DNA from: a virus
Virus record (IMG/VR): IMGVR_UViG_3300044987_002388
Span: 1 to 34,758 of that record
Strand: one strand, 5' to 3'
Length of the DNA stretch: 34,758 nt
Position 1 is the first letter of the stretch; each line of letters opens with the position of its first letter. A model generated the notes under the pieces. The model ran no database searches and was not told the DNA's origin. It was given only the letters and a program-made list of their open reading frames with translations. Of this stretch, positions 22 through 34,734 are shown piece after piece. The position numbers and the translations under genes were made by a program.

Positions 22-41
22 TGTCTCGCCGAAAATGAGAA
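22..41 (+). repeat. Left terminal inverted repeat (outermost transposase site)
   Basis: This 20-bp sequence starting TGTCTCG matches the reverse complement of 34715-34734 at 18 of 20 positions (differences at positions 8 and 13). It starts with the TG expected at Mu-family ends, and its inner part carries the TGAGAA core seen again at other sites at both ends. It is probably the L1 site at which the transposase nicks the DNA. Confidence 0.75.
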
Positions 42-2363: not shown

Positions 2364-3965
2364 CTATTCCCCCGCTTTGTTGGCCTTTTCCCGAGCCTTC
2401 AAATCACCAATTTCGTTGGCGATGCCGTCCAGCTGGTCAACCAGGTCGTAGAAGGACTTTTTGTCCGCCTTGATCTTCACCCCAAGCTGGTTCAACAGCT
2501 GAGCCAGACGCTCGGCAACGGCCGCGTCGTCAGCCCCCCCGACCACCAGCTCCTGTGCCCGCTGGACGAGCTGCGCCGCCCGCGCGGCCTGATCTTGCCC
2601 CCCGCCCGGAACAATCTGCCCGGCGTTGTCCCGCCGGCCAGGGAATTCCATCACGCCCCTGTTGTTTAAGGTGTCCTTTGCGTTGGATGCAATATATGAC
2701 GGGTCCTGCTGGCGCAAAGGAAGATCGATGGCTTCATATTTGGTGTTTATTGCATCTTTTTTTAAAGGGCCTGCCTCAAGCGTAGCTCGATCTATTTTCA
2801 TCCTTCGTTGTGCTGCATCCCATTGCTGTTGAAGGACAGGGACTTGTTCGTTAGCAACCCGAGATGCGTCAACTGCTTTATTTATTGGATTCACAGCGGA
2901 ATCAAGACGATCTCCGTTTTCTTTTCTTAATCTTGTCTCTTCTGATTGCCTAAAAATAAGCCCCATAGCAGGGTTCATAAATGGATCTTCTTTGAGGCGC
3001 TGCTTTGTGTTCTCCTCAGCAGTGTCGCTCGCCTTCCTGTTGAATTTATTAGCTTTTTTGTATTGATCTATATCAGCCGCAGAAACAGATTGCCCGCGTT
3101 CGATTTTTCTTTGTAAATCACCAGCATCTTCTTCATCAATGATTCCGCTTTTTACCAGACCAGCTATAACTGATTGAGCGTCCGAAACGGCAGATGCTTT
3201 AGCTTCATTCAGTCTTGGAATTTTCCCAGAAGCTGTATAAATAACATCTTGTTGAGTTAAAATGCTTTGCGCGGCGTTTTTTTCTTCTGCATCAACCGCA
3301 TCAACTTCACGGCGACGGGCTAATGAATTCCTTTGTTGTTGGGCTTCATTTTTAGATAGCTCGCCACGCATTTCTTTTAAATCGATCTTTGCCATCTCAA
3401 CATCTTCTGCCGCCGTCTTCACAAGCAAAATAGATTCGGCAGTGTTTTTTGCCTGATCTTGAAGCTTTCCAAGCGCTTCAAAATATTCAGAAAGAGCTTT
3501 GCGTCCTTTTTCGAAATTCAAATCAAGTTGGTCTTGAACCCGCGCCCAGTTTAACGCTTTGGCTGTTTTGTCCGCTTCCTCCATTGCAGCCTTGTGTTCA
3601 CGCCATTTGCTGATAAGCGTCGTAACAATTGCAATCACAGCGCCAAGCACTGCTAGAGTCGCTGCAATAGTGCCAGCAAACGCTTTCCAGGCACCGCCTA
3701 ACTTATCCAACTGCTGAGCCGCTTCACGGAAGGATCCGCGCAAAACCAAGGTGGTCGCGTTTAGCGCGATTTTGGTCTTGGAAAGCTCCTTCGTGGAGGT
3801 CCCCAAGGCGTCAGCTTTTTGCTTGAGCTGATCGGTGGCGGCCGCCTCGGTTTTCATGCCGCCGGCCGACGCCGTCGACATCGACTGGATGTCCTGTTTT
3901 GCGGCGGCTGCGCCGCGCCCGTCGTAACGGGTTTTAATGTCTACAATGGTCTGCTTATCACCCAT
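2364..3965 (-). CDS. Tail tape measure protein
   Basis: 533 aa. Long Ala/Gln/Lys/Glu-rich helices, mostly coiled coil, surround one strongly hydrophobic segment at about residues 95-118 (AATLAVLGAVIAIVTTLI), the usual organisation of tape measure proteins. At about 1.5 angstrom per residue it would set a tail of very roughly 80 nm. The central two thirds (about 2680-3560) are conspicuously AT-rich compared with both ends of the gene and all neighbours, which suggests exchange of the rod segment by recombination. The gene sits immediately before the hub and after the lipoprotein block. No chaperone frameshift pair was seen upstream, where it would be expected in many siphoviruses. Confidence 0.75.
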   Translation of the reverse strand: MGDKQTIVDIKTRYDGRGAAAAKQDIQSMSTASAGGMKTEAAATDQLKQKADALGTSTKELSKTKIALNATTLVLRGSFREAAQQLDKLGGAWKAFAGTIAATLAVLGAVIAIVTTLISKWREHKAAMEEADKTAKALNWARVQDQLDLNFEKGRKALSEYFEALGKLQDQAKNTAESILLVKTAAEDVEMAKIDLKEMRGELSKNEAQQQRNSLARRREVDAVDAEEKNAAQSILTQQDVIYTASGKIPRLNEAKASAVSDAQSVIAGLVKSGIIDEEDAGDLQRKIERGQSVSAADIDQYKKANKFNRKASDTAEENTKQRLKEDPFMNPAMGLIFRQSEETRLRKENGDRLDSAVNPINKAVDASRVANEQVPVLQQQWDAAQRRMKIDRATLEAGPLKKDAINTKYEAIDLPLRQQDPSYIASNAKDTLNNRGVMEFPGRRDNAGQIVPGGGQDQAARAAQLVQRAQELVVGGADDAAVAERLAQLLNQLGVKIKADKKSFYDLVDQLDGIANEIGDLKAREKANKAGE

Positions 3966-3977
3966 GGAAATTCCCCC

Positions 3978-5297
3978 TTAAAGCTCGATGATTTTATGCA
4001 GCAGCGTGCCGCCCGCAATGTAGGCCATGTGCAGGCGGTTTGCATTGCGCTGGTCCAAGCAAACAGAAGGGTTGCTTCCCGCGCAGATCCGAACGGGCGT
4101 TGCCTGGCCGGCCAGCGCCATTTCAACGTCCAGCCGATAGATAGAGCCGCCCTTCACAAAGACCGCCTGGACGCCCCGTTTTGTGGCAATTAATCGAGGC
4201 GGGCAGCGGTCCTCCTGGGTGGCCTGTCCGAGATCGGCAAGCCGGTCCAGGGGGAACCTTGGAACGCCTTTGTCAAACACCTGCAGCCGGAGCCGATTGT
4301 CCAGCACGCTCTGGCAGTAAACGGATCCATTCAGGCCGATTACAACATCCGGATAGCACAGGTCGTCGCCATACCATTTCCCGTAGGCTTCATAGGCCGC
4401 CCAGGTTTGCCTTTTGCCGCCCGATGGATTGCCAATCGCCACAGCGGAGGCCTGGTCCTCGTATCCGTTATGAACCGAGGCCCAGGCTCCGCCGGAAGAT
4501 GAGATGTAAAAAGCGAATTTCTCCCCGGTCATGCCGGCCGGAAACGTGGCTTGTTTTGTGATCCGTCCGGATCGGTCAATCACCCCGTATACCCCGTTTT
4601 TCGTCAGCATTACAGCCGCCCCCGGAAACTCGGGGGACAAGCAAATCCGTGCGGCTCCCGTGGTGAGGCCGAGGAACCTCCAGGAGCCAGCGCCGGAGGG
4701 CGTCCGGATCCAGACGGCCGGGCCATGCAGTTCGCCCCATTCCTTGGGCCCGCAGCGCATCGAGACCCAGCACCAGCCATCGGCATCAACAACGATATCC
4801 GGCAGATAGACGCGGGAAGAGTTGACCAGGCCGCCGCGCTCCGATTTGGCGACTTGTCCGCCGCCCCACTTTCCGGCCTTGTCCTGCGCATAAACCCAAA
4901 TGGACTGCATGCCGGGGCCCTCGGCAGCCACGTAAAGCCAACCGTCGGATCCGCAGGCGATTGCAGGCCGGGCGAACACTCCGGAGGCAATAGCCGCGGC
5001 TGCCGGCGCGGGGGCGGACTCCACGACAATGGGTTGACCGATTGGATCGCCCGGTTGCTCGATCGCGGGCGCACTGTTTGTGGTTGCCGCTGCCGTCTCG
5101 TTTGTGGCGATCGTGGCAATAACATCGACCATGTCGGCCACTTTGGCCTGGTCGAAGGCGCAGCCAGAAGCAGCGAGGAAAAGGAGGGACGCCGCGATGT
5201 TGGCGGCGCCCAGGGCGAGCGCCTTGAGGTGGGATCCCGATAATTGCCACTCAGCAATCCAGGAGTAATTGATGTTGCGGCGTCCCGGATTATTCAT
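3978..5297 (-). CDS. Predicted lipoprotein with beta-propeller-like body
   Basis: 439 aa. The ATG is preceded by a strong AAGGAGGT seven bases upstream. A basic N-terminus leads to a hydrophobic stretch (about 29-45) ending in a lipobox-like LAASGC, so Cys46 could be lipidated after signal peptidase II cleavage. The remainder is composed of repeated short beta units with recurring DGW, WV and GG motifs (for example SDGWLYVA, DADGWCWVS, LNGSVYC), resembling BNR/sialidase-type or NHL-type propeller blades. No catalytic residues are assignable. The position between a tail-fibre-like gene and the tape measure implies late expression. It could be a surface or receptor-binding component, or a periplasmic or outer-membrane protein acting on the infected cell. 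The propeller fold is an inference. Confidence 0.6.
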   Translation of the reverse strand: MNNPGRRNINYSWIAEWQLSGSHLKALALGAANIAASLLFLAASGCAFDQAKVADMVDVIATIATNETAAATTNSAPAIEQPGDPIGQPIVVESAPAPAAAAIASGVFARPAIACGSDGWLYVAAEGPGMQSIWVYAQDKAGKWGGGQVAKSERGGLVNSSRVYLPDIVVDADGWCWVSMRCGPKEWGELHGPAVWIRTPSGAGSWRFLGLTTGAARICLSPEFPGAAVMLTKNGVYGVIDRSGRITKQATFPAGMTGEKFAFYISSSGGAWASVHNGYEDQASAVAIGNPSGGKRQTWAAYEAYGKWYGDDLCYPDVVIGLNGSVYCQSVLDNRLRLQVFDKGVPRFPLDRLADLGQATQEDRCPPRLIATKRGVQAVFVKGGSIYRLDVEMALAGQATPVRICAGSNPSVCLDQRNANRLHMAYIAGGTLLHKIIEL

Positions 5298-5312
5298 ACA
5301 GCACCTCCTTTG

Positions 5313-5495
5313 TTAAAGTGATGTCGACTCGCCGGCCCCGTTAGAGAGGTTGGTGGAGACGGTGACCGTTTCAATAGTCGTGTCGGAGTTGACATTGACG
5401 TTAACTGCTGGGTTGAACTCCGCTGTTTCGAGTTCGCACCCCAAAAGTAAGGCGGCGGCGGCTAGAAAAACTGCGCAGACGATGATCCGGAACAT
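5313..5495 (-). CDS. Small lipoprotein
   Basis: 60 aa. The start is chosen at 5495 because AAGGAG lies seven bases upstream. The reading frame is open further upstream but without a ribosome site. Hydrophobic residues 4-18 end in LLLGC, a canonical lipobox with Cys20, so the mature product is only about 41 residues of Val/Asn/Thr-rich sequence. Size and type recall small phage lipoproteins that block receptors or DNA injection (T5 Llp, TP-J34 Ltp), but there is no recognisable sequence similarity. It sits between the fibre-like gene and the larger lipoprotein. An entry-exclusion or host outer-membrane role is speculative. Confidence 0.6.
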   Translation of the reverse strand: MFRIIVCAVFLAAAALLLGCELETAEFNPAVNVNVNSDTTIETVTVSTNLSNGAGESTSL

Positions 5496-5667
5496 GGCAG
5501 ACTCCTTTGTTACAAATAACCGGCCAGCAGGTGAGTCCACGCGTAAGATCACTGAAACCGCGCTTTCTCCGCCAAAGAACGAACCCCCTCTGCACACTTA
5601 TGCAGGGGGACAGTGGTTTTTGCTGGCCGGCTAAAATTCTCCGCGATCAACTTGCGGGTTGGGCTGC
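5496..5667. repeat. Intergenic region with nested inverted repeats
   Basis: No convincing gene is present in this 172-bp gap between the fibre-like gene and the small lipoprotein. A perfect 10-bp inverted repeat, CCGGCCAGCA at 5520-5529 and its complement at 5621-5630, encloses a second hairpin with arms CCCCC/TGCA (5584-5594) and TGCA/GGGGG (5601-5609). On the transcribed (-) strand the inner hairpin is followed by a weak T-rich stretch. It could lower expression of the downstream lipoproteins or protect mRNA ends. Confidence 0.5.
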
Positions 5668-7761
5668 TCATGGCCGCCATCCCGCGGCGTAGGCCGCTAT
5701 TTCGAGTTCATTGGCCCGCCTAATAAAGACGCTCCTGATGTACACCGTGCCCTCGTTGGTCGATCTGGTTATGTCAACGCCGAATCCGCCGTGGGCGCGA
5801 ACGTACCCCAAAGGAGGATAAAAAATCCATCTCGTTTGATAGCCCGCCGTCGCCGAAGCGGGAGCCGCCTCCACAACCGTATAATCCAAAGAAGCGTCAG
5901 AAAACCCGTATGAATGCGTTTTGGGGGACAAGGTCAATAGCACGGCTTTCGCGGCGGCGGACGAAAAGGCAAAGCCATATTTTACGAGGTAGCTCCGCGA
6001 GGCGTCCGGAACAAGCCCATGGACATATCCGTTGGTCCCTGCCGCTGACATGGGATTAGACAATGGGCCATAAGTGGTATATACATGGTTGCCAGCCCCC
6101 GACCCGATTGCGGCACTGGAGCATACCATTACGGGGTGAACCATAGGAAACGTCTGAGTCGCCCGAATCTTTAAGCCGTCCGTTGTTGACATGGCGAATT
6201 TGTATGTCCCCGTAACTGTCAGATCCAGTTCCGTGTCCCAGATCAAGCCGTTCTGCCACAGGCTCGTCAGCGCATTCGTCGATTGATAATTGACCCACAC
6301 TTCCCAGGATGCACTTTGGCCGGTCAGGGTTAGGCCACCCATGGCCTGGGTGATAACAGTGGGAACCGCAAGCGAGACGAGGTAAATGGAGTTCGTGGCT
6401 GTGATCACGATATTGGATGTGGCGGTCGTGATGTTTTTGTAAATTGTCTGGCCATTCGTGAGCGCCGCCATTTGGCTGATCACATAATTCGTAGTCGCAT
6501 AGCTGTTTGTTGCCGGAGGCTGCAGCGCCGTATCCGCCAGGATCCCCTGGGCGGCCGACGCAAAGGCCGCGGGGTTGGTGAGGACGGCATGGCCCTGCAC
6601 TTGGACGGGCACGCCGAAATTGACGCGGGCGGCGGCTTGGACCCCGTTCGAGACCGCAACCCGCCAGAACGCCACATCGCCGGCCAGGACGTTGCTGGCG
6701 GTCAGGGACATGTACCCGGCCGATGCGGAGTTGGTCGACAGGGTGACTGCGTCGACCCACGTGCCGGTCACGTAATTGGTGGACGTCTGCAGGCGGAAGT
6801 CGCCAACGATCCCGTTGGTGCTGTACTCCAATGTGCTCACGCTGCCGCTTGGAGCCTCCGACACGATCCACGGATAGGGATCCATGGACTCCACGTCCAT
6901 TACCGGCTTCGTGGTGTCCGACTCGTGGGCCAGAGATAGGTAGCCATTGGGATTCTGCGTCCAGCGGAATCGCTCGTGCAGGTTTATACCATCCTCCCAC
7001 GTCAGACCATCCTGAAGCGCCAGCGTACTCAGGGCCGGGTGGCTGGCGTAAGAGGCCACGGCGGACTGCACATTGGACGCATACCAGCCCAGGGTGATCG
7101 GGCGATAGTCCGACTCGTTTGTGAGCGAGCCGCCCTCCACCCATCCGGGATGCGCGACGAGCGTGACCGCGGCCCGGAGATCCTGTGTGACGCCCAGGGC
7201 CGCCGGGTTGGCATAGGCCATGACTGTAAATTTGTCGATCGTGTAATAGTGCGTGGCGCCGGGGCCCGGTGGCGGGGTCTGCTGGGTGACAATTATTTCT
7301 GCCGACAGGCCATCAGCCGATATGACTGACGCATGCCCGGCGTGGGAAACGGCGGCCTGTGGCAATACAGACTGGATTTTGTAATCGGCCGAGGCGAGCG
7401 TGAGGGTGATGGTGGATGCCAGCGTCGAATCAAACACGGCTGTCGGGGGAAACGCTTCGATCACACCGTTTGTCCAGTACGCGGGGGAGGAAACAGATAC
7501 GCCATAATCCCGCTCGGCCAGCTCAGTGACCGGGCTGATCTGCAGCGCGGTCCGCGAGTCATACAACACCCGCCCGCCAGGCGTGACTCCGTCACCGAAC
7601 CGGACCTGGACCGGGCTGCCATCCGATTCGACTCCCACCGCCATCTCGCCATCCGTCAACGCGGGGGTTTCGTTCGGGCTAACTTTGGGGATGTAGGCCC
7701 GCTGACAAAAGGCGGAGGAGGCGATCAACGCCAAAAATATAAAGAGTCGGATTTTGCTCAT
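5668..7761 (-). CDS. Tail-fibre-like protein with signal peptide
   Basis: 697 aa. Residues 1-20 are a signal-peptide-like segment (basic MSKIR, then a hydrophobic core). Directly behind it lies a motif common at the start of phage fibres and tropism determinants: P-L/A-L-x-D-GE-x-AVG, about 15 residues, then FGDGVTPGG and a beta-strand (about residues 30-68). In known fibres this module mediates attachment to the baseplate. The rest is Thr/Ser/Asn-rich beta-structure with repeated TNxY and STN patterns. The extreme C-terminus forms a compact beta domain that might bind ligand. It starts three bases after the stop of the protease-domain gene. A signal peptide ahead of a fibre anchor module is unusual. 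The fibre role is inferred from the motif and the genomic position. Confidence 0.6.
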   Translation of the reverse strand: MSKIRLFIFLALIASSAFCQRAYIPKVSPNETPALTDGEMAVGVESDGSPVQVRFGDGVTPGGRVLYDSRTALQISPVTELAERDYGVSVSSPAYWTNGVIEAFPPTAVFDSTLASTITLTLASADYKIQSVLPQAAVSHAGHASVISADGLSAEIIVTQQTPPPGPGATHYYTIDKFTVMAYANPAALGVTQDLRAAVTLVAHPGWVEGGSLTNESDYRPITLGWYASNVQSAVASYASHPALSTLALQDGLTWEDGINLHERFRWTQNPNGYLSLAHESDTTKPVMDVESMDPYPWIVSEAPSGSVSTLEYSTNGIVGDFRLQTSTNYVTGTWVDAVTLSTNSASAGYMSLTASNVLAGDVAFWRVAVSNGVQAAARVNFGVPVQVQGHAVLTNPAAFASAAQGILADTALQPPATNSYATTNYVISQMAALTNGQTIYKNITTATSNIVITATNSIYLVSLAVPTVITQAMGGLTLTGQSASWEVWVNYQSTNALTSLWQNGLIWDTELDLTVTGTYKFAMSTTDGLKIRATQTFPMVHPVMVCSSAAIGSGAGNHVYTTYGPLSNPMSAAGTNGYVHGLVPDASRSYLVKYGFAFSSAAAKAVLLTLSPKTHSYGFSDASLDYTVVEAAPASATAGYQTRWIFYPPLGYVRAHGGFGVDITRSTNEGTVYIRSVFIRRANELEIAAYAAGWRP

Positions 7762-7764
7762 AAA

Positions 7765-9483
7765 TTAAAACTCCGTGTAGTTGGAAACATCGACGAATGA
7801 CAGAGTGTTCGTGTCGCCCCAGCCCGTAATGCCCGCCTGAATCTCCGTCTTGAAGCTGTGCAAGTTCGGGCCGGCAGTCGGGAACCACAGCGCGAACAGG
7901 AGAACGATGTCGCTCCCGGTGCTGAAGATGACCGGTTGCGAACTATCGCCCGGCACGGGGTAATGCCGGAAGAGGTCGCGCCACACAGGCTGCTCCGCGG
8001 CCTTCCACCAGGCCAGCGTCGCATAGGCTCCGGCGCTCCATGTTTCCGATTTGCCAACAACAAGCTGCATCTCCGGGTATCCACCGTGCACCTCCCCGCA
8101 GGCCAGCGGCAGTTCGTTAATACCGAGCGGGAGGGCCTCCTGCGGCGACGCTAAAAACTTGGCGGGTGGGACCGGTATATCCGCGTCCAGCTTGACCATC
8201 AGGATATCGGTTGCGACGTTTTTCTCAGCCGCGACGACCGCGCTCCACACTCCGTTTGTGGCGTCCACGAATTTCAGGGTGTCCCCCACAACAGGGCGGT
8301 ATCCGCCGTGGTTCGCGGCGATGGCATGCCTAGGCGTGACCAGCACGGCCCCGATCAGACCGCCCCGGCTGCTCCAGGCTGCCGCGCATGCGGGCGCTGG
8401 CTGAAGCCACAGGTTGGTGGATCTGACAAAGGTGTTCGACGGAACATTCCAAGTGCTGAACACCTGCATCGTTGCTCCGGTGACGGAGACGGCCACATTC
8501 GAAATGACAGCGGCACGCAGCGATCCTGGGATGCCGCCCCAGTATCGATCGACCACGTATCCCTCGGTCCGCAAAGTCAGTAGGTTGGTCCGCCCGAAAT
8601 CGGCCGTGGTCACGGCAGCGGTCACGGCGCCATCTGCGAGGTGGGTCAGATATCCGGACGCCGTGACGCTGGCCAAGTTCGTCGGCCACACGGCGAAGGA
8701 CAGAGCCGAGAAGGTGTGCTGCTCCGTGATTTGCGCGATCCGGTGATGCTTCACGTTGTTGAACCCCACACGCGCCACCAGTTGGTCGAGGTTCGTTCTG
8801 TACGTCGTGGTGTCCGGGGCGTTCGATGGAGCGTCCACCCAGGAAACATTGAACCAGTCGGGGTTGCGCCAGGAGCCGGCCACAACTGTTCCGGATGTGG
8901 AGGCGACCGCAATCTGCACGGCGATCGCCGCCGCATTGGATGCGGCCGTGGCCTGTGCGCGTGCCACAAGGTCCGTCGAGACCGCCTGACTCCAGGCCGC
9001 ACGGATCCAGCCATCCACCATATTGCTGGTTACGAGCTGCACATAAGGCGGAGGCGACCCGGTTGTGACGCCAAATCCAGCGGCCACCTCCAGCGTGCCG
9101 AACCCTCGCATGTTGGCCTTGCTCACGCCAGCGATGAGGATGCGATAGTCATACTGCCCGGCTGCCACGACATTGCTGGCCGGCCAGGAGATCCGGATCC
9201 TCCCGTTGGTGGCGTTGGCCACCACGCCTGGGAGCTCAAAGGGCACATTGGTAGATCCGGCCGGGCGAAAGAGAAACGCGACCCGTGTGGCGTTAGTAAG
9301 AGAAAGCGGCCTCTCCTGTATCTTGTAGCGAGCGACCCACTCGATGGATTCGCCCGATGTCAACTGCAGGCCATAGGGAGAGGGCTTTTGGCACTCAATT
9401 TCCCAGGCGACCTGGGAAGACAGATCGGCGACGGCCGCGCCCGCGGCAATCAGCACACACAACCAGACAAACCCCTTGCGCAT
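7765..9483 (-). CDS. Signal-peptide protein: BppU-like N-domain and chymotrypsin-like protease domain
   Basis: 572 aa. A Sec signal (about 1-19, cleavage likely after AVA) is followed by an Ig-like domain (about 45-135) resembling the N-terminal domain of baseplate upper proteins (BppU_N), with an AGQYDYRI strand near 108-115. A helical Ala-rich linker (about 165-200) leads to a C-terminal region with the S1 chymotrypsin signature. His392 sits in a hydrophobic TPRHAIAANH context (family: TAAHC), Asp426 in TDILMVKL (family: D-I-A-L-x-x-L) and Ser514 in GDSSQPVI (family: GDSGGPV), in order and at plausible spacing. It may be an active secreted or virion-borne serine protease. Gly-Gly after the Ser is replaced by Ser-Gln, so activity is not certain. 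A good ribosome site (GGAGGG) precedes the ATG. Confidence 0.65.
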   Translation of the reverse strand: MRKGFVWLCVLIAAGAAVADLSSQVAWEIECQKPSPYGLQLTSGESIEWVARYKIQERPLSLTNATRVAFLFRPAGSTNVPFELPGVVANATNGRIRISWPASNVVAAGQYDYRILIAGVSKANMRGFGTLEVAAGFGVTTGSPPPYVQLVTSNMVDGWIRAAWSQAVSTDLVARAQATAASNAAAIAVQIAVASTSGTVVAGSWRNPDWFNVSWVDAPSNAPDTTTYRTNLDQLVARVGFNNVKHHRIAQITEQHTFSALSFAVWPTNLASVTASGYLTHLADGAVTAAVTTADFGRTNLLTLRTEGYVVDRYWGGIPGSLRAAVISNVAVSVTGATMQVFSTWNVPSNTFVRSTNLWLQPAPACAAAWSSRGGLIGAVLVTPRHAIAANHGGYRPVVGDTLKFVDATNGVWSAVVAAEKNVATDILMVKLDADIPVPPAKFLASPQEALPLGINELPLACGEVHGGYPEMQLVVGKSETWSAGAYATLAWWKAAEQPVWRDLFRHYPVPGDSSQPVIFSTGSDIVLLFALWFPTAGPNLHSFKTEIQAGITGWGDTNTLSFVDVSNYTEF

Positions 9484-9495
9484 GTGATAACCCTC

Positions 9496-10212
9496 CTACT
9501 TGATGGTGATGCAGTTGACGGTGCCTGTGGTGAGCACCAGGCCGCCGGATCCGTTCGTGTCAGCCGTTTTGATGAAGGTCAGGTTTGTGATTGCCAGGGC
9601 ATTGGTCCAGAGCTGGCCTCCGATGTACAGCCCGACGGTCCCGTCGGCAATCCGCTGGTTCCCCCACTTCAGCACGCCCGGTTCCCAGTTTGTTCCGGCC
9701 CCGATCTGCGCGGCCGGCAGCCCGGTGGCCTCCGCCCATGTGAGCTCTCCTGTAGCACCGTTGTAGGGCCACAAAAAGTACTGAAAGGTACTATCGATCC
9801 AGCAGTACCCGTTTGTGCTGCCGATGTTCGTTGAAAGGACATACCCGAGATAGTTGTCATACCAGAAGTACCAGGAGTTGCTTGACTGATATTCAAAGTA
9901 GTTGGCCGTCTCGAAATAATTCCCAATCACGTTGACTGGCGTGCTCACGCCTGTTACCGATATGAAATTGGTCGTGGCCTTCAACACGGCCCCGGTAGAC
10001 CCGATCTTCCAGGCGGACTCATAGCCGTTCATCCGGTTCGACGTGACGGCCGAGGCCTGGTTCACCGTCGTGGTGGTCGCGATCCCGTTGGCCGGAATGA
10101 AGTTCGTCGGGTAGCGAATAGCGCCCGTGTTTGTATTTACCATCACCGTGGCCTGGCCAAAGGCCGTTGCAGCGGCAATGCATAGGGCAAGAAAAGCAAT
10201 TGTCTGTTTCAT
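9496..10212 (-). CDS. Secreted Asn/Thr-rich protein in the tail region
   Basis: 238 aa with the start at 10212, because GGGAG lies six bases before this ATG while another in-frame ATG at 10218 directly abuts it. Residues 1-19 form a Sec signal with cleavage likely after AFG. The mature part is rich in Asn, Thr, Tyr and Trp, with short beta-repeats around residues 75-130 (repeated YF/WYF motifs). A C-terminal section contains LYIGGQLWTN, resembling the tail-spike or fibre ends of other phages. Family not recognised. It lies between the BppU-like protein and the protease-domain protein, so a tail-fibre, spike or fibre-partner role is likely but unproven. Confidence 0.55.
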   Translation of the reverse strand: MKQTIAFLALCIAAATAFGQATVMVNTNTGAIRYPTNFIPANGIATTTTVNQASAVTSNRMNGYESAWKIGSTGAVLKATTNFISVTGVSTPVNVIGNYFETANYFEYQSSNSWYFWYDNYLGYVLSTNIGSTNGYCWIDSTFQYFLWPYNGATGELTWAEATGLPAAQIGAGTNWEPGVLKWGNQRIADGTVGLYIGGQLWTNALAITNLTFIKTADTNGSGGLVLTTGTVNCITIK

Positions 10213-10224
10213 GAACATCTCCCG

Positions 10225-10842
10225 TTAAATGGTTACGAGCGCAGCGCCGAGCGTGATGCGTTCCTGACCGGCCGCGCCGTCCACGATCATTTCGTGCCAG
10301 CTGCCGGTCGTCCGGTTCTTGAAGTAGATAGACCCATTGCGGAGCCTCACCACTTGCGCCACAGCGTCCGGAGTCAGATCCGGACCGGACTTCATGAGGT
10401 ACACCTTGGCGAGCCCAAGCACGACTTCAGCGCTGGTGGTCACGACGGTTCCGTAAACGACCAGGATGAAGAGCTGCTTGTCCTCGCTGGCGTCATCAAT
10501 CACCAGGTCCATCTCGGCCGCTGTCAGCTCAAAGGTGACGTGAGCCTTATCGGCCGCTTTCGTGAGCCACTCCACTTCCGTTATGTTGGCCGCCGGCAAC
10601 GTGCCGGACTTTTCAACGACCGGGGCCCCATCCAGGTCGGTATACAACCTGAGCGTGAGCGCTGTGTACTGATCCTTCACCGTGTCGATGAACACGTTAT
10701 TGACATAGACGCCGCATTCAAAGCGAGTCGTCTTGCCTCTCCAGGTGAGAGGATCGAGGCCGGTGATTGCGTCGGCCTGGCCGCCCGGCACGCATGGATC
10801 GAGTTTAACGCGAACGCGGTGAAAGAGATGGGTCGTACTCAT
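10225..10842 (-). CDS. Baseplate upper-protein-like (BppU_N-type) protein
   Basis: 205 aa without a signal peptide. The middle region (about 55-165) reads like a BppU-type Ig fold: LRLYTDLDG, a variable loop, then HVTFELTAAEMDLV and a YGTVV strand. The C-terminus has LRNGSIYFKNRTTGSW followed by an ITL-type ending, a small beta-hairpin typical of fibre-attachment proteins. The ATG overlaps the previous stop (TAATG). It precedes the secreted tail proteins and probably links them to the baseplate. An alternative is a minor tail protein of the same complex. Confidence 0.5.
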   Translation of the reverse strand: MSTTHLFHRVRVKLDPCVPGGQADAITGLDPLTWRGKTTRFECGVYVNNVFIDTVKDQYTALTLRLYTDLDGAPVVEKSGTLPAANITEVEWLTKAADKAHVTFELTAAEMDLVIDDASEDKQLFILVVYGTVVTTSAEVVLGLAKVYLMKSGPDLTPDAVAQVVRLRNGSIYFKNRTTGSWHEMIVDGAAGQERITLGAALVTI

Positions 10843-11282
10843 TAGGGCATGGCTCCCGTTACGAATTGGTAATTGATCGTGACGCTCACGCCAATGAATC
10901 TGGGCACCGATATGGGGCCCATAACAAGCGGCGTGATTGTTTTGTCATAGCCAGCCCCTTGGAGCGTAAGGCTCATTTTTTTCGTGGGCTGGTCGGCGGC
11001 GACTGCTGCATCCAGCGCATCGAGCGCCGCGCCGTGGGCCAGCGCCCATGCGATTGCAGCCCCATGGCTCGCGCATTCGCGCGTCACTTCAAACGCGATC
11101 GTGTAAGAGGCATTCGCCCTGGACAGCGGCAACACGCCCTTTGCGCGTATGCCGGGCGCCAGTTCTGCTGCGGATTGTCTGGCCATGGAAAACCCGTTCG
11201 GGCCGCGCGACCTGTCGATCCCCGCTCCTTCCCCATCGCACAGGACCAAGTCCTTCAAGCCTCCTCTAAGCACGATCCGCAT
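10842..11282 (-). CDS. Putative minor tail protein
   Basis: 146 aa, family not recognised. The first 40 residues contain a basic GRx/SRGPNGF section. The C-terminal half is beta-rich and ends in SVTINYQFVTGAMP. Its start overlaps the stop of the large upstream tail gene by one base (TAATG), and its own stop overlaps the next start in the same way, so it belongs to a tightly coupled tail cistron. By location after the putative tube protein it could be a tail assembly or tube-associated protein. There is nothing to support a more precise call. Confidence 0.5.
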   Translation of the reverse strand: MRIVLRGGLKDLVLCDGEGAGIDRSRGPNGFSMARQSAAELAPGIRAKGVLPLSRANASYTIAFEVTRECASHGAAIAWALAHGAALDALDAAVAADQPTKKMSLTLQGAGYDKTITPLVMGPISVPRFIGVSVTINYQFVTGAMP

Positions 11283-12208
11283 TAAGCCCCCGTTCCCATG
11301 GTGAACAGGGCATCCATAGCGCCGGTGGTGAATGAGCGGGTCGTGCTGAACGCTGTTTCGCCTGGCCGGATGGTGGTGGTCCCGAAATTGACCGAACCTT
11401 CGGCCGGGCTGCAGTTTTTCAGCGTGAAGGCCACGCCTGTGCCGCTGACAACCAGGTCGTTTTTCAACGCCGAGCGGCGCACGCCGCGGCCGGATCCGGA
11501 GCCTTGCAGCTTCAGCACGTCAATGATGTTTGCCGCCGTGGCGTTCAAGGCTTTGAACCTGGCAACGGCCGAGATCCCGCCGAACGTCATCCCGATGGTG
11601 CCGACTTCATCGCACGAAAGCGGCGTGAGCTGCATGGCGAAGTCAATGGTGAGTCCGACTTCCGATGTGATCGCGCTCCAAGGGGCGGATGCTCCCCATA
11701 CCATGGTATAGACCTGGGAAAGGATGTCGGCCGGGCTGAAACTGGTATCGCCGAACGCCGCCGTCTCCGCCTTGATGATGCTGTCGGCCGTTGACCAGGC
11801 CGTGTTGTCCGCCCGGATGCCGGAAATGGTAACAGGCCCGTAAAGCTGCTGGCCGACGGCAAAGCGCAGCTGGGGCAACTGGGTGATGGCCGCCGCCTTT
11901 AGCGTCAGCTTGTCGCCGCTCAGCGCATGGATCACACATGTGGCGTCAGATCCAAAGATGTCGGAGCCGATCGCTCGGGACGCATTCACCAGGAGAGCCG
12001 TCCGGTACGACCAAACACCGACAGGCGTGAAACTAACGCTCGCGATCGCGTCCATCGGGATCTCGTCGACCGCGCCAAAAAATGAGGTCGCGATCTGCTG
12101 TGTGGTGAGCCCGGGCGACAGAGCAATATCGCCCTCGGTATACATGGAAACTGATCCGAAGGTCACGATTGCCGGGCCGCGGATAACTGAAGCGCGTGCG
12201 ATTGTCAT
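11282..12208 (-). CDS. Putative major tail (tube) protein
   Basis: 308 aa, almost entirely predicted beta-structure with alternating Thr/Ser/Val, Gly turns and no long helices. The N-terminus (RGPAIVTFGSVSMYTEGDI) resembles tube proteins of Verrucomicrobia-type phages in general layout only. It follows the tail-terminator candidate and comes before the small tail proteins, the usual slot for the tube protein. Start and stop overlap the neighbours, consistent with coupled translation. The tube assignment is by position and composition. Confidence 0.5.
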   Translation of the reverse strand: MTIARASVIRGPAIVTFGSVSMYTEGDIALSPGLTTQQIATSFFGAVDEIPMDAIASVSFTPVGVWSYRTALLVNASRAIGSDIFGSDATCVIHALSGDKLTLKAAAITQLPQLRFAVGQQLYGPVTISGIRADNTAWSTADSIIKAETAAFGDTSFSPADILSQVYTMVWGASAPWSAITSEVGLTIDFAMQLTPLSCDEVGTIGMTFGGISAVARFKALNATAANIIDVLKLQGSGSGRGVRRSALKNDLVVSGTGVAFTLKNCSPAEGSVNFGTTTIRPGETAFSTTRSFTTGAMDALFTMGTGA

Positions 12209-12717
12209 ATGTTCTCCTCCTCATCTGGTGTTACTGGGGCGACTGCGAAACAAACTCCGGTCTTGCAAACCACTTCGTAGATCAGCACGCCCTGCAGCCG
12301 CTGATCCACAACCTCGGAGATCTGCGTGGGAATGAGCGCAATGCCAAACCCTTCCGGGCATTTTCCGTTCAGGGTCTGCACGACCTGCTCGGCCGCATAC
12401 TGGGCCGTGATCCGAGTCCCGGTTTCCGCTCGGTTGATCAACACGTTTTCGACGATTCGGATCCGGATGGTGGCGTCCTGGAAATAGAGCACGGCGCCGT
12501 CGTTTCCGGAAAAGCTCGGGCTCCGAATGATGCAGCAGATCCCGGGCTGAGCCTGGGCAACGGTCTCATTAATCCTGGCAACCAGATCGAGTTGATTCTC
12601 GCACAGCACTGGGATGCGCCGATCAAGTCGGCTGTTCTCATCCTGCAGAAGGCCGGCAATGCCCGCCTGGTGCTCGCCGATCAACCCGGGGAGTTCGAGT
12701 TTAAAGTTATCGCTCAT
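12205..12717 (-). CDS. Putative tail terminator / neck protein
   Basis: 170 aa. The N-terminal 60 residues are helical (LPGLIGEHQAGIAGLLQDENSRL). The C-terminal half is beta-rich with a GTRITAQYAAEQVVQTL helix and strand pattern that is reminiscent of tail terminator proteins, which have a helix packing on a sheet. Neighbouring gene starts overlap by 4 bp (ATGA). The slot between the G-like completion protein and the putative tube protein fits a neck or terminator role. Identification is by order, not by a strong motif. Confidence 0.45.
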   Translation of the reverse strand: MSDNFKLELPGLIGEHQAGIAGLLQDENSRLDRRIPVLCENQLDLVARINETVAQAQPGICCIIRSPSFSGNDGAVLYFQDATIRIRIVENVLINRAETGTRITAQYAAEQVVQTLNGKCPEGFGIALIPTQISEVVDQRLQGVLIYEVVCKTGVCFAVAPVTPDEEENI

Positions 12718-13367
12718 GCCGCACCTTCCTTGCCTTGCAACGCCATGCTTAATATTTCATCAACACCGGACAGGGCGGCCGACTGCAGGTTGTCATCGCT
12801 CGGCAACATATCGGGGTTGCCCTCGTGGTGCACCGGGCCGGCCGTCAGCCAATACCACACCTGCGCCTGGAGATCTTTGCTTGCGAAGATCTTTTTCGGG
12901 GATCCTTCAACGAGCGCCAATCCGATTGCCCTCACAACTCCGCCTTTCCCGCTCAGCAGCAGCGTGAGCGGAGGCGTGCGACCTTCTCCAGGGCTTCCGG
13001 CTGCATAAGCCTCGGCGCGGGCCGGGATCGCCAGATTCTTGCCGCGCTTCGGGCTCACGTCGCCGCCGATCAGGCGATGGAAAAACTCCGGAGAGGCCGT
13101 GATCTTGGCACCTTCCGCCGTCACGCTCGATTCATCTAGCTGGATGTCGTCTGACAATCCCTGGACGAAATGACTTCTCGGCCAGTTCATCTTGTTCGGA
13201 TGATCCGCGTCATACTCGCGGAGGTGATCCTGCATTTCCCTGGCAACGCCCTGGGCAGCGCTCAAAGACAGCGATCGCAAAAATTCAGGCTCACCACCGG
13301 CCAGCATGATCAAAGCGTCAAGCTGCTCGGGCGGAACAAAGACTTGGATTATCACGGGAGTGCTCAC
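12714..13367 (-). CDS. Tail completion / virion morphogenesis protein (Mu gpG-like position)
   Basis: 217 aa. A helical N-terminus (VPPEQLDALIMLAGG, then SAAQGVAREMQDHLREYDADHPNKMNWPRSHF) is followed by a beta-rich central region containing RGKNLAIPARAEAY, a pattern typical of head-tail completion proteins of the HK97-gp10/gpG type. The start overlaps the upstream gene by ATGA. Its place after the MuF-like protein agrees with Mu, where gpF is followed by gpG. The function is inferred from order and general pattern. Confidence 0.5.
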   Translation of the reverse strand: MSTPVIIQVFVPPEQLDALIMLAGGEPEFLRSLSLSAAQGVAREMQDHLREYDADHPNKMNWPRSHFVQGLSDDIQLDESSVTAEGAKITASPEFFHRLIGGDVSPKRGKNLAIPARAEAYAAGSPGEGRTPPLTLLLSGKGGVVRAIGLALVEGSPKKIFASKDLQAQVWYWLTAGPVHHEGNPDMLPSDDNLQSAALSGVDEILSMALQGKEGAA

Positions 13368-14242
13368 GAGGCCCTCCTGGCAATAAACCGAATGACGCCG
13401 TCCACGATGTCCGCATTCCCGCCGAAGAGGCCCTGCAGGGCTTCTGCAATGCCGCTGTCTTCGGGGGCTCTGGCCTCAAGCCCGTCATTCAAATCATCAA
13501 CTTCGGCGCCCGGCACTTGCAGTGTCGCGCCGCGCTCCAGAATGCCAAGCTCGATCACCTCAGAGCGCTTGAGCATGCGATCCCCCATGCCGCTGCCAAA
13601 CTTGTACGGCGGGTAGGGCAGCCCGAAATCAGAGATGGCCGTCCAGATGCTGGAGGTCTTCAGCGCGGCCAGTCGCCCGCTGGAGGACTCGGTCGCCGTC
13701 TCCGGATCCGGAATGGCGGCCCGGGCCTCATCCCAGATGGCCGACCAGTCGCGAGGCTCCTTGCGGCTGTCGATCCGGACCAACTCCTTGGCCGGCCAGG
13801 CGTTCAGGAACAGAGGGTTGTCGGCATCCAGCTTTCGCCTGGTGAAGCCCTTGGCGTGGCCGGTCTGCACATCAAAGATCATGCCCAGGCGCTTGGCGCT
13901 CGTAATGTCGCGCACGTCGCCAGCGCCGCCCTGGCTGAGCTTGTATCCATTTTCGCTCAGGAACTTGCGCTGATCGCGGATAAAGCCCGAGCGATCAACA
14001 AACGCCTCGCCACCCTGGTACGTCTTTTTCACGCGCTCCAAATTCGCAACCAGATCCGCCTTTTCGCGTTGCAGCAGATCGGTCCAGGCAACCCGCGATG
14101 AGAAGAAGCTGCGCTCGCGGATCTGCTGGGGAACATCCTTCCATTGCCTGGACCGCAGAGTGGAGCCGACGATCGTCTTGGTTTTAAGACGGTCTGCGGC
14201 GGTCTGCAGGGGCAGCGGGATGATAGATGTTTTAATGGTCAT
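13364..14242 (-). CDS. MuF-like head morphogenesis / minor capsid protein
   Basis: 292 aa. The stretch at about residues 110-175 (TSAKRLGMIFDVQTGHAKG, then NAWPAKELVRI and EPRDW) matches in style the core of phage head morphogenesis domains (Mu gpF / SPP1 gp7), in which a basic helix precedes a partially conserved Pro-Ala and Arg-Asp-Trp segment. The C-terminal 60 residues form a separate acidic region. Unlike Mu, where gpF follows the portal, this gene is located after the DUF1320-like connector, with a papain-like gene in the canonical position. Minor capsid protein is therefore likely but not certain. Confidence 0.5.
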   Translation of the reverse strand: MTIKTSIIPLPLQTAADRLKTKTIVGSTLRSRQWKDVPQQIRERSFFSSRVAWTDLLQREKADLVANLERVKKTYQGGEAFVDRSGFIRDQRKFLSENGYKLSQGGAGDVRDITSAKRLGMIFDVQTGHAKGFTRRKLDADNPLFLNAWPAKELVRIDSRKEPRDWSAIWDEARAAIPDPETATESSSGRLAALKTSSIWTAISDFGLPYPPYKFGSGMGDRMLKRSEVIELGILERGATLQVPGAEVDDLNDGLEARAPEDSGIAEALQGLFGGNADIVDGVIRFIARRAS

Positions 14243-14246
14243 AAAA

Positions 14247-14702
14247 TCAGATGCCGCTCATTTTGTTGCGGCTGTTCGCGGCGGATCCCGTCGGGATAAT
14301 CTTGATGGATCCCGTTGAGCTGTCCGCGTCCATAGTTTCGGGATCATCGGCCTTGGTGATCGGGAACTCATCCTTGCCGGCAATGTCCAGGTCCCGGTAG
14401 ATCCGGGAGATCCGGCTCACCTGGTCCTGGGAGAGGGCCAGCCCTGGAAGACGCCCCGAGAGCGTCTCCAGGACCAGCATGCAAACGTGTTCGATCAGTT
14501 CAGGGGGAACGGAGAGGGCGGTCGCGGAAAGCCTCACCCGGCCGCCGATCCGGGCCCGGACATAATTCGCCTTGTCGCGAATCGTGTCGGCCGCCGGATC
14601 CGACTGGCCGGAGGCAAGCGCTGCGCTCCGAAGAGCGCTCACCTGGGCCCCGACCATGAATCGGTTCAGATCTGCCGGAAGAATGACTGTCCACGCCGCC
14701 AT
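14247..14702 (-). CDS. DUF1320 (Mu gp36)-like head-tail connector
   Basis: 151 aa. Typical gp36-like features are an all-helical N-terminal 90 residues, including a helix with repeated Ala/Arg/Leu at about residues 22-55, then VPPELIEHVCMLVLETL, and a flexible Asp/Ser-rich end. In Mu this protein follows the capsid and forms the head-tail connector. Here the secreted 138-aa protein is inserted between capsid and connector. It begins 11 bp after the previous stop and precedes the MuF-like gene by 4 bp. Identification is by gene order plus helical layout. Confidence 0.5.
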   Translation of the reverse strand: MAAWTVILPADLNRFMVGAQVSALRSAALASGQSDPAADTIRDKANYVRARIGGRVRLSATALSVPPELIEHVCMLVLETLSGRLPGLALSQDQVSRISRIYRDLDIAGKDEFPITKADDPETMDADSSTGSIKIIPTGSAANSRNKMSGI

Positions 14703-14712
14703 GTCGAACCCC

Positions 14713-15129
14713 CTATTGTTCCAGGCCCTGCAGCTTGATTACACCGCTGATGTTCGTTACCCCGATACCGACAACGATCGTGTCGCCTCGAAGGAAATAA
14801 AAATCATTGGTGATAAACTGTACCGTGTTTGAGTCCGTGCCCATGGCGTAGGACCAGTAGGCCGGGCCGGTAGCAGAGCGCTTGAGCGTCACAGTCGCGT
14901 TGGTCGCCGCGAGCCTGATATCCAGGAGCAGCGGCTTGAACGAGCTGAACGCCGGGTTCTGGATCCCGGAGGTGTAGTTCGTGCTGGCGCTGGAGGCGGT
15001 CAGCCCGATCGTGAAGGATTGCTCCACGGGGGTTTGCGCCATCGCCAGGGGCTGGATCAGCAACAGGATCAACAGGACAGACAGGACCTTTGCGAGGTCA
15101 GTGGACAGGAACTCGATCAACTTCTTCAT
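14713..15129 (-). CDS. Secreted protein inserted between capsid and connector genes
   Basis: 138 aa. Residues 1-31 form a long but clear Sec signal: basic start, then a Leu/Ile-rich core (LSVLLILLLIQPLAMA) with cleavage likely after AMA. The mature 107 residues are beta-rich (TIGLTASSAS, TVTLKRSA) with a repeated TNAT/VTNIS style. A GGAG-type ribosome site precedes the ATG. It separates the capsid gene from the connector and lies just after a strong hairpin, so its dosage probably differs from that of the capsid. It may be a head decoration protein or an exported protein with a host-surface role. No family recognised. Confidence 0.55.
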   Translation of the reverse strand: MKKLIEFLSTDLAKVLSVLLILLLIQPLAMAQTPVEQSFTIGLTASSASTNYTSGIQNPAFSSFKPLLLDIRLAATNATVTLKRSATGPAYWSYAMGTDSNTVQFITNDFYFLRGDTIVVGIGVTNISGVIKLQGLEQ

Positions 15130-15230: not shown

Positions 15231-16238
15231 CTACTTGATCTTGATGGCCTTCACGCCCAGGGTGCTGGGGAACACGATGTTCGAGTAGTGGGCGACCGTG
15301 ATGTCCACGAACGCCGTGTGCTCTTCGCGGTAGACCCAGAACTTGCCGCCGGAGGCGACGCCCTTGCCTTCGTTCCCGCCGAACGGCGTGAAGAAGCGCT
15401 TGCAGTTGGACGGATCCGTCCGGCTCTGACCCATGGGGGCCATGTAGGTGATGACATAATCATCACCGGCGAGCTGGGTCTTCGCGCCGTCTTTCTTGAC
15501 GGTGTAGACGGCGTCGCATTCGAGCACGCGGTCCACGCGGAACTTGCGGGCAAGCTCCTCGGGGCTCTTGCCGGCCGCCACGCCAGCGGCGGGCGTGTTC
15601 TGCGCTTCATACGCATCAGCGCGATCATCGAACGCGCTGCCGGTGTAGACAACCACATCGGAGCGCATGCCGCGCAGATCCTGGCCGGCGCGCAACAGGG
15701 CGCGCACATCACCGTCGGGATTGGCCTGTGAGTTCCAGGTCTTCTCGGCGATGACGCCGGAGGCCGTGATCAGCCCAGCGAGCCCGCGCCGGAACTCGTT
15801 CCGGATCAGGCGGTTCATCAGATACTGGACGGTGTTCTCTTCCTCGCCCGGCACCATGAGCTCACGATCCAGGCGAATCGTGAGGCCCTTGTTGATGGTG
15901 CGGATGGTTTCCGGAGAGGCTCCGTATTCCAGCACCTTGTACTCGGCGCCGATGCCGCGCACGTCGTCGCTTTCGCTCAGGAACGCTTCCGAGTTGTCAT
16001 ACTTGGAATACTCGAACCGGCGCGGGGCGGCCACGGGCGGGAACATCGCGTCAAGCAGCTCGGCCAGCTTGGGCGGGGTCCAGGCGCTCGCGAACGTGGT
16101 CAGCGGCTGACTCAGATTCGCGGCGTCGAAACGGTTTTCATTCGCCATATAGACCTGGCGGATGAGATTCTGCTGGCCGCAGTCAGACGGCGTGTCCAGG
16201 ACAAACTGGACGGTTTGGGCGATCGACTTACTTTTCAC
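15231..16238 (-). CDS. Major capsid protein
   Basis: 335 aa with the start at the GTG at 16238. AGGAGG lies four bases upstream, whereas an ATG further upstream at 16265 has no ribosome site. N-terminal and central regions have the helix/strand mix of HK97-like capsids, with an acidic loop (VPGEEEN), RDRE-like charged stretches and repeated FVDITV-type strands near the end. The gene follows the gpI-type protease and the small cement-like protein and precedes a hairpin, matching the head cassette of Mu-type phages. The C-terminal residues (STLGVKAIKIK) form a terminal strand. Assignment as capsid rests on position and overall composition; the HK97 fold is not proven here. Confidence 0.65.
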   Translation of the reverse strand: MKSKSIAQTVQFVLDTPSDCGQQNLIRQVYMANENRFDAANLSQPLTTFASAWTPPKLAELLDAMFPPVAAPRRFEYSKYDNSEAFLSESDDVRGIGAEYKVLEYGASPETIRTINKGLTIRLDRELMVPGEEENTVQYLMNRLIRNEFRRGLAGLITASGVIAEKTWNSQANPDGDVRALLRAGQDLRGMRSDVVVYTGSAFDDRADAYEAQNTPAAGVAAGKSPEELARKFRVDRVLECDAVYTVKKDGAKTQLAGDDYVITYMAPMGQSRTDPSNCKRFFTPFGGNEGKGVASGGKFWVYREEHTAFVDITVAHYSNIVFPSTLGVKAIKIK

Positions 16239-16309
16239 GGGACCTCCTCGGTTTTGATTGTGCATCGTGGCGCGGTGCTTCGGTTGTGCGGGTTGTCCGC
16301 AATGATGGT

Positions 16310-18000: not shown

Positions 18001-18732
18001 TCAGCCCCCTGCAGGACTCAAGACATGGGCTGCCTGCCCGACGCCTTGCAGCGCCTCCTGGACGGCCGCGCCGATTCCAAGAACGGGTCCGCTCTCGTCA
18101 GGCGGCCACGGTTGCGGTTCGGCGGACGGTTTATCCGCCCGACCCCGCCGCGTATGCGCCCCGAGCCCGGCCAGTTCCTCGCACAGCCGGTGCCAGGCGC
18201 TGTTCGGATTCACGGCGTCAAACTTATCCCGGCGGCGATCGCGCAAATCAATGATCCCCTGAAGCACCCACGCGGCGTATTCGCTGCACACGGTCTTGTC
18301 TTCCGATCGCACGATCGCACGGCCGTAGCGCTCGAACATTGCCATGGCCAAAAGCTGGATCTTAAAGTACGACTGCCGGCCGACGGCGGACCGAGCCATT
18401 TTCAATGCTGGCGCCGGATCCTGCCCTGGAATTAAGGAGCGAGGCAAATCCACCAGTGCGCAGCGGTGGTTTTTCAAATCCTCCTCCATCCAGGCATGCA
18501 GCCTGGCAATGGGCCAGGGGCCGGTAACGCCGCGGTTCAGAAGCGCTTCAAAGTAGCATTCCTCTCCATCCATGAACCGGAATCCGACAAAGGCGTGGGA
18601 CCACGGTCCGTCTGTGACCACCTGGGTGGCGCGGCTGAACAAGCTTGAGTCGTCGGCTGTGAAGCCAACGAAGATGTCGCACGGCTCACAGGTGATTTCA
18701 AACAGCGGCCATTTCTCTTTGCGCTTTGACAT
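18001..18732 (-). CDS. Permuted papain-like (YiiX/NlpC-P60-like) enzyme
   Basis: 243 aa with the start at 18732, where AAGGAG lies upstream and the TAATATG arrangement couples it to the portal stop. The pattern matches circularly permuted NlpC/P60 (YiiX-type) enzymes: CDIFVGF, then WSHAFVGF with His46, a YFEALLNRGV strand-loop, and a later CSEYAAWVL with Cys149. The Cys comes after the His, the permuted order. Members act on peptides or lipids; a peptidoglycan amidase would suit entry or lysis. The slot between portal and protease normally holds gpF in Mu. The C-terminal 50 residues are Pro/Gly-rich and probably linker. Substrate unknown. Confidence 0.65.
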   Translation of the reverse strand: MSKRKEKWPLFEITCEPCDIFVGFTADDSSLFSRATQVVTDGPWSHAFVGFRFMDGEECYFEALLNRGVTGPWPIARLHAWMEEDLKNHRCALVDLPRSLIPGQDPAPALKMARSAVGRQSYFKIQLLAMAMFERYGRAIVRSEDKTVCSEYAAWVLQGIIDLRDRRRDKFDAVNPNSAWHRLCEELAGLGAHTRRGRADKPSAEPQPWPPDESGPVLGIGAAVQEALQGVGQAAHVLSPAGG

Positions 18733-18733
18733 A

Positions 18734-34714: not shown

Positions 34715-34734
34715 TTCTCATCTTCGCCGAGACA
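34715..34734 (-). repeat. Right terminal inverted repeat (outermost transposase site)
   Basis: On the (-) strand it begins TGTCTCGG and matches 22-41 at 18 of 20 positions. On the (+) strand it ends GAGACA, giving the CA expected at the right end of Mu-type elements. Confidence 0.75.

Follow-up and report, generated by a model that had tools for sequence, protein, structure and literature searches.

Signal peptides in a Mu-like structural operon

The virus record IMGVR_UViG_3300044987_002388 of IMG/VR comprises 34,758 bases, and this whole stretch is referred to as the window. It represents a Mu-like transposable phage, and within its structural operon six genes, located at 14713-15129, 9496-10212, 7765-9483, 5668-7761, 5313-5495 and 3978-5297 and designated below by their first coordinate, code for products which begin with predicted Sec or lipoprotein signal peptides. 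All six open reading frames (ORFs) were confirmed at these coordinates on the minus strand. They share one minus-strand run with the head and tail genes, in which the spacing is mostly 3-15 bp; wider gaps were found upstream of 14713 (101 bp to the major head gene) and between 5313 and 5668 (172 bp). A strong ribosome-binding site precedes five of the six genes, and a weaker one precedes 5668.

The n-, h- and c-regions with an AXA-type cleavage site were found in the products of 14713 (MKKLIEFLSTDLAKVLSVLLILLLIQPLAMA/Q; the slash marks the predicted cut), 9496 (MKQTIAFLALCIAAATA/FGQ), 7765 (MRKGFVWLCVLIAAGAAVA/D) and 5668 (MSKIRLFIFLALIASSA/FCQ), and judged by these features they are textbook type I Sec signals. 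For 5313 (MFRIIVCAVFLAAAALLLG/C), a clear lipoprotein signal with the clean lipobox LLLG/C is predicted. A positively charged n-region, an h-region of 8-15 residues and either an AXA-type or a lipobox cut site are present in five of the six genes. In the sixth, 3978 (MNNPGRRNINYSWIAEWQLSGSHLKALALGAANIAASLLFLAASG/C), the hydrophobic stretch is preceded by a leader of 24 residues and the lipobox (ASG/C) is weaker; an atypical lipoprotein signal of 45 amino acids is plausible here. Signals were scored with a home-made predictor, which recovers 10 of 12 textbook signal peptides of E. coli. Five of the six genes obtained scores of 6.7-7.6 (best other gene of the window 5.1), and 3978 scored negative because of its unusually long n-region. 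The statement of the first-pass annotation that all six products carry signal peptides inside the structural operon was borne out, with five textbook signals and a plausible, atypical one in 3978. It had also pointed to two lipobox-like cysteine residues, of which that of 5313 held, whereas the lipobox of 3978 is partial and follows the long n-region.

The gene 7765-9483 codes for a protein of 572 amino acids. Directly behind its predicted signal peptide (9427-9483), a BppU-N-like baseplate domain (9061-9426, residues 20-141) was identified by fold comparison, and a long helix of about 42 residues (8899-9024) is predicted after this domain, which is an arrangement known from fibres. Residues 20-141 matched 4v96_AL (1.8 MDa viral genome injection device; Z score 11.0), 6v8i_AJ (baseplate of phage 80alpha; Z 10.7) and 3uh8, the N-terminal domain of TP901-1 ORF48 (104 residues, 3.0 Å; Z 9.3). 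Matches to the viral predicted structures of BFVD include BppU_N proteins (E value about 1e-6). The predicted local distance difference test score (pLDDT) of the model over this domain is about 50-75. In Pfam, a BppU match was absent at E values up to 1, and PHROGs gave just PHROG 1084, of unknown function (E 0.005). Because the curated sequence models gave no match, the label is limited to the fold: the modelled N-terminal domain is BppU-like in fold and is not classed as a member of the family.

Fibre or baseplate modules had been ascribed to several of the exported proteins before. Pfam and PHROGs did not support this, as no clear match to a fibre family was obtained for the window proteins in either library, whereas the fold comparison supports it for 7765. 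The C-terminal part of the same protein (7804-8415) is a putative trypsin-like domain, in which His, Asp and Ser motifs occur in order (AANH, DILMVKL, GDSSQP). They align with ADH, DLTVARL and GDSGSP (E 2e-8) in the related contig L160 (11574-12245), and in both phages the serine-protease-like domain forms the C-terminus of a fibre-slot protein with a signal. For its identity as a protease, neither a Pfam match nor a PDB sequence match was obtained, and the model is of low confidence in this part.

The product of 14713-15129 (138 amino acids) is encoded directly after the major head gene, a position designated slot A, and its predicted signal covers residues 1-31 (about 15037-15129). The model is a beta-sandwich of low confidence with weak jelly-roll fold matches. 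The cement protein of Helicobacter phage KHP40 was rejected as a precedent for slot A, since its Z score of 8.1 lies within the noise of the fold tool and the genes adjoining the major head gene in KHP30 have no signal. In the fibre-slot protein of 9496-10212 (238 amino acids), the predicted type I signal (about 10156-10212) is followed by the module VMVNTNtGaixyPxxFxxxNG, which recurs behind a signal in the relatives L202 (7478-9451) and L131 (7105-10041). The protein encoded by 5668-7761 is of fibre size (697 amino acids), with a predicted type I signal (about 7705-7761) and a GDGVTPGG module (about 7552-7695). Its N-terminus is resembled by that of a protein of L207 (11598-13076), which combines a signal with GDGITPGG. 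The module was read as similar to N-terminal motifs of fibres; no library confirmed this, and searches of Pfam, PHROGs and further databases with 5668 gave no informative matches.

Informative matches were likewise obtained for neither lipoprotein candidate. The small protein of 5313-5495 (60 amino acids, signal at 5439-5495, recognised by the lipobox LLLG/C) is possibly an outer-membrane spanin or another surface protein; its match to a spanin family, PHROG 812, is at chance level (E 0.42). For 3978-5297 (439 amino acids), whose putative signal at about 5163-5297 was recognised by sequence and missed by the predictor, weak propeller-like Pfam matches were found only.

Signal genes in related phages

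Relatives were collected with the terminase as bait, and contigs with poor ORF calls or with sequence outside the phage (e.g. L139, L144, L152, L153, L156, L159) were not relied on. The terminase relatives lie in viral contigs and in genome bins; the bins belong to Kiritimatiellae, other Verrucomicrobia and Lentisphaeraceae, and Proteobacteria contain more distant relatives. It is proposed that the clade of the window phage infects Kiritimatiellae and other Verrucomicrobiota. In the structural regions of 20 related contigs, signal peptides were found in 37 of 170 non-core genes (of at least 100 amino acids) in comparison to 2 of 147 core genes (Fisher p about 5e-9). The two matches in core genes are probably start miscalls.

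The signal genes occupy two fixed places. Slot A holds a protein of about 125-175 amino acids right after the major head gene and before a gp36-type gene, and a signal was found there in the window as well as in no fewer than eleven further phages (L002, L130, L137, L141, L160, L162, L197, L199, L200, L202, L207); in L198 the start is signal-like with a score under the cut-off. Divergent members share weak sequence similarity, and those of L197, L199 and L200 are clear homologues. The slot A member of L002 (15896-16324) has a prepilin-like N-terminus (GFALVELFLIVVVVALL) rather than an ordinary signal.

Slot B, the fibre slot, lies mostly between the tail tube and tape measure genes and holds one to five signal genes per phage, with proteins of up to 1223 amino acids. 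A signal-bearing protein of L202 (7478-9451) matched PF07484 (Tail Collar, E 2e-19) and tail fibre PHROGs (down to E 2e-28), and the signal-bearing BppU-N protein of L207 contains collagen repeats and matched a tail fibre PHROG (E 1e-22). Searches of viral contigs and isolated phages gave no close relative of the window proteins for tail tube, fibre and head.

Two further fibre-slot proteins with signals contain BspA-type leucine-rich repeats (L137, 10483-13782) and Melibiase_C (L130, 9211-12882), which suggests an exchange with surface proteins of the host. Several h-regions in other members resemble translated short repeats (AIFAICHLPSAI in two neighbouring genes, LLFAVSC, LLLITCYLLL; L140 4324-9959, L147 9683-13108, L135 8780-9739), and from their sequences it looks as if these signals arose from dispersed DNA repeats.

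Tail Collar proteins carry a signal in 2 of 24 cases in the sample of the phylum and in none of 14 in Pseudomonadota. A general trait of tail-collar proteins is ruled out by these counts, and the signals are therefore a feature of this phage group rather than of fibres in general or of the phylum as a whole. In six isolated proteobacterial Mu-like phages (186 lysis and structural genes), signal-like N-termini were found mostly on lysis proteins (holin, spanin, small lipoproteins). Two genes of Sinorhizobium phage StopSmel (L167; 18791-19282 and 28754-31549), which lie in the head and tail modules, are among the exceptions.

The BppU-like domain was detected in 20 of 388 genomes of the phylum. 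Most of its loci lie within Mu-like structural operons, and in most cases more genes with signal peptides come after them. The domain stands directly behind a signal in 18 of 24 loci; five loci lack the signal, and in one the domain is fused to the preceding gene. A fusion of this kind was seen in L192 (the same gene as L148 4869-7091), where a gp36-type part and BppU-N share one open frame with a signal-like stretch (ILAALAIFAGVFSAQA) at the join. In the tree, the five plain signal-negative loci form one nested clade (support 100/99), the nearest relatives of which have a signal. L185 is marked as lacking a signal on the tree and as having one in the locus count; a very short stretch of its row was used for the tree. 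The tree points to an old signal before the BppU-like domain, which was lost at least once in a whole clade. Signal-free BppU-N genes of L149, L170, L171 and L173 start, at the position of the signal peptide, with similar leaders (APQG and the like), which are possibly a mobile repeat inserted at gene starts.

Core genes and ends of the phage

Beside the signal genes, the window encodes a portal protein of the Mu type (PF06074, E 1e-43), a Mu protease/scaffold (PF10123, E 2e-17), a TniB/MuB-type ATPase (PF05621, E 1e-6) and a T4-type terminase. The portal and large terminase genes, identified by profile matches, lie at 18734-21726 on the minus strand. A repeat search revealed a left end repeat (TGTCTCGCCGAAAATGAGAA, 22-41, plus strand) and its inverted partner (34715-34734, minus strand), which both exactly fit one degenerate 20-mer (chance expectation 0). 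The assignment to the Mu-like phages is based on these four proteins and the inverted end repeats. By terminase, the closest isolated phages are B3-type and other Mu-like phages (31-35% identity). About 21-24 bases of other DNA lie outside each repeat. By eye, the outer edges (TGTAT and GATCA) show no 5-bp target duplication, though the exact ends are uncertain and packaged virion DNA would show none; short flanks of this kind would fit packaged virion DNA over an integrated prophage.

The tail genes suggest a non-contractile tail and hence a siphophage. No signal was found in the major head protein (15231-16265, with homologues in the relatives), the probable tape measure protein (2364-3965, 533 amino acids, recognised by position and length) and the tail hub-like protein (585-2363, 592 amino acids, conserved in the relatives), all of them encoded on the minus strand. 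An adaptor-like protein (10225-10842, minus strand, 205 amino acids) adjoins the exported set and likewise lacks a signal, as does its homologous domain in L094. By eye it had been suggested to be a homologue of the BppU-like domain; this was rejected, as profile comparison gave a probability of 0.1%.

The tail module ends with a cysteine-rich protein (106-588; CHSCCTTC, CSCGCG, and CNCKCA..CNCAG in the relatives L132 and L134), possibly a metal-binding tail tip. Between the portal and protease genes lies a gene for a protein of 256 amino acids (18001-18771), which is papain/NlpC-like by eye and has a homologue (33%) at the same place in L002.

Proposed export of tail fibres and rival explanations

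It is about an even chance (roughly 50%) that several tail-fibre or baseplate-arm proteins in the clade of the window phage are made as Sec preproteins and join the tail outside the cytoplasm, probably at lysis. Of the possibilities raised in the first-pass annotation, the strongest support exists for a maturation of the tail outside the inner membrane, because a BppU-type domain stands behind a signal, the signal is conserved in the relatives and clear fibres of relatives carry signals; it is unproven all the same. For a release other than simple lysis no support was found. The wider statement, that a clade of tailed phages routes fibres, baseplate arms and perhaps a head decoration protein via Sec and completes the virion outside the cytoplasm, is more tentative and falls somewhat short of even odds.

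According to the proposed mechanism, the structural operon would be transcribed late, as its position suggests, and the signal-free head, tube, tape measure and hub would be assembled in the cytoplasm. SecYEG would export the fibre-slot proteins, together with the slot A protein, to the periplasm, where they would be cleaved, fold and oligomerise. Once lysis opens the inner membrane, the attachment modules at their N-termini could, as the BppU-type fold implies, dock on the tail tip, and the particle would acquire its adhesins outside the cytoplasm. The lipoprotein candidates 5313 and 3978 may be of a different class, namely spanin-like or surface proteins, and a mixture of fibres docked on the tail and two surface-acting lipoproteins is possible.

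Several observations weigh against export of the fibres. In L094, which is the closest relative by terminase, all adaptor proteins of the stretch examined lack a signal, and the signal-free adaptor-like protein of the window stands beside the exported set. One clade lost the signal on its BppU-N protein; export is therefore not essential to the BppU-like domain. The predictor is a heuristic, and residues +1 to +14 of the mature parts contain 84 Lys or Arg residues in comparison to about 77-80 expected by composition; a depletion of positive charge beyond the overall composition is not seen, and the net charge is slightly negative. The model of 7765 has a mean pLDDT of 39 overall and is usable solely over the N-terminal domain. 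Neither proteomics nor fractionation nor electron microscopy was found for these phages, and exported proteins encoded among tail genes can be non-virion proteins, as lambda Lom is (PMC12309495).

This last point leads to the best surviving alternative, which we consider unlikely: the proteins leave the cytoplasm without ever becoming part of the virion, and act in the periplasm or by display on the surface of the infected or lysogenic cell, where they mask the receptor, exclude phages or alter the host surface, in the manner of Llp of T5 or Lom of lambda. Fibre-type modules would then be kept merely as receptor-binding parts. The signal peptides with the two lipobox candidates agree with this explanation, as does the signal-free adaptor-like protein in the same phage; a serine-protease-like domain would suit a secreted enzyme, and the gene for Lom, itself a signal-peptide protein, is flanked by those for the tail spike and the tail fibre (PMC12309495). 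However, a BppU-N tail-attachment fold behind the signal has no evident use at the cell surface and keeps its position where the signal has been lost, up to five signal genes per phage occupy fixed places of the structural operon, and Tail Collar and collagen fibres of relatives have signals too. Surface display or exclusion may apply, above all to the lipoprotein candidates 5313 and 3978.

Clearly less probable is that the hydrophobic N-termini are false positives or remain uncleaved, as a plug, a trimerisation helix or a membrane-touching segment at the fibre base. Some segments are indeed long (a hydrophobic run of 20 residues in L202, the 45-residue segment of 3978), the charge is not depleted just after the cut, the slot A member of L002 is prepilin-like and several h-regions elsewhere resemble translated repeats. 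Nevertheless, a positive n-region, an h-region and an AXA-type or lipobox cut site occur together in five of the six genes, the same feature precedes unrelated modules and is absent from core proteins, and a membrane-touching plug needs no cleavage site. A mixed origin, in which the fibre genes were put together out of host adhesin genes whose products are secreted, leaving the signals as a remnant that has no function in the phage, would agree with the BspA-type repeats (L137) and Melibiase_C (L130) behind signals and with the minority of collar-domain proteins of the phylum that have signals (2 of 24), but is highly improbable, since remnants would decay and the signal is retained over divergent BppU-N loci with a clade-wide loss nested within.

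The proposed export of the fibres may also be compared with known systems. With BppU (ORF48) of TP901-1 and related baseplates, the protein of 7765 shares the fold of the N-terminal domain, the predicted helix after it and the expected role as a link between receptor-binding parts and the tail tip; it differs by the Sec signal before the domain, the Mu-like phage, the diderm hosts and the lack of a match at the Pfam level. BppU itself is synthesised in the cytoplasm, where it is also assembled, and is not known to have a signal peptide. Pseudomonas phage B3, Rhodovulum phage vB_RhkS_P1 and other Mu-like phages resemble the window in the Mu-like genes for head and packaging, the genes for transposition and their arrangement, but in the six isolated Mu-like phages the signal-like N-termini are mostly on lysis genes, apart from the two in StopSmel. 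Lom and Bor of lambda and Llp of T5 are exported phage proteins which act on the host surface. They also carry signal peptides, and Lom is encoded among tail genes; they are not known to be parts of the virion or to have a tail-attachment domain, whereas the window has several signal proteins in one genome, and these are of fibre type. The adsorption protein pIII of the filamentous phage M13 is made as a Sec preprotein as well, but assembly of M13 takes place in the membrane and its particles leave the cell by secretion, with no lysis, whereas the head and tail genes of the window are those of an ordinary tailed phage.

In the literature searched, which mostly excluded subscription papers, filamentous-phage display, lysis proteins and surveys turned up and no account of tailed phages that export tail fibres by Sec, which is not a proof of novelty. 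Tail fibres of tailed phages are taken as made and attached in the cytoplasm. In a survey of phage retroelement proteins, the absence of signal peptides was taken as support for phage origin (PMC6199706). The window is rated as a case of ordinary tailed-phage modules with an unusual route.

If fibres are exported, an extracytoplasmic assembly step would exist in Caudoviricetes. Compared with the textbook, assembly would proceed in a different order, fibres would fold under different conditions (oxidising periplasm, periplasmic chaperones) and particles would become infectious at a different moment; fibres could also bind receptors before the particles are free. Export would also explain the keeping of a protease-like fibre away from the cytoplasm. 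For phages of Verrucomicrobiota, the signal would be a simple sequence mark by which fibres missed by the standard libraries can be found.

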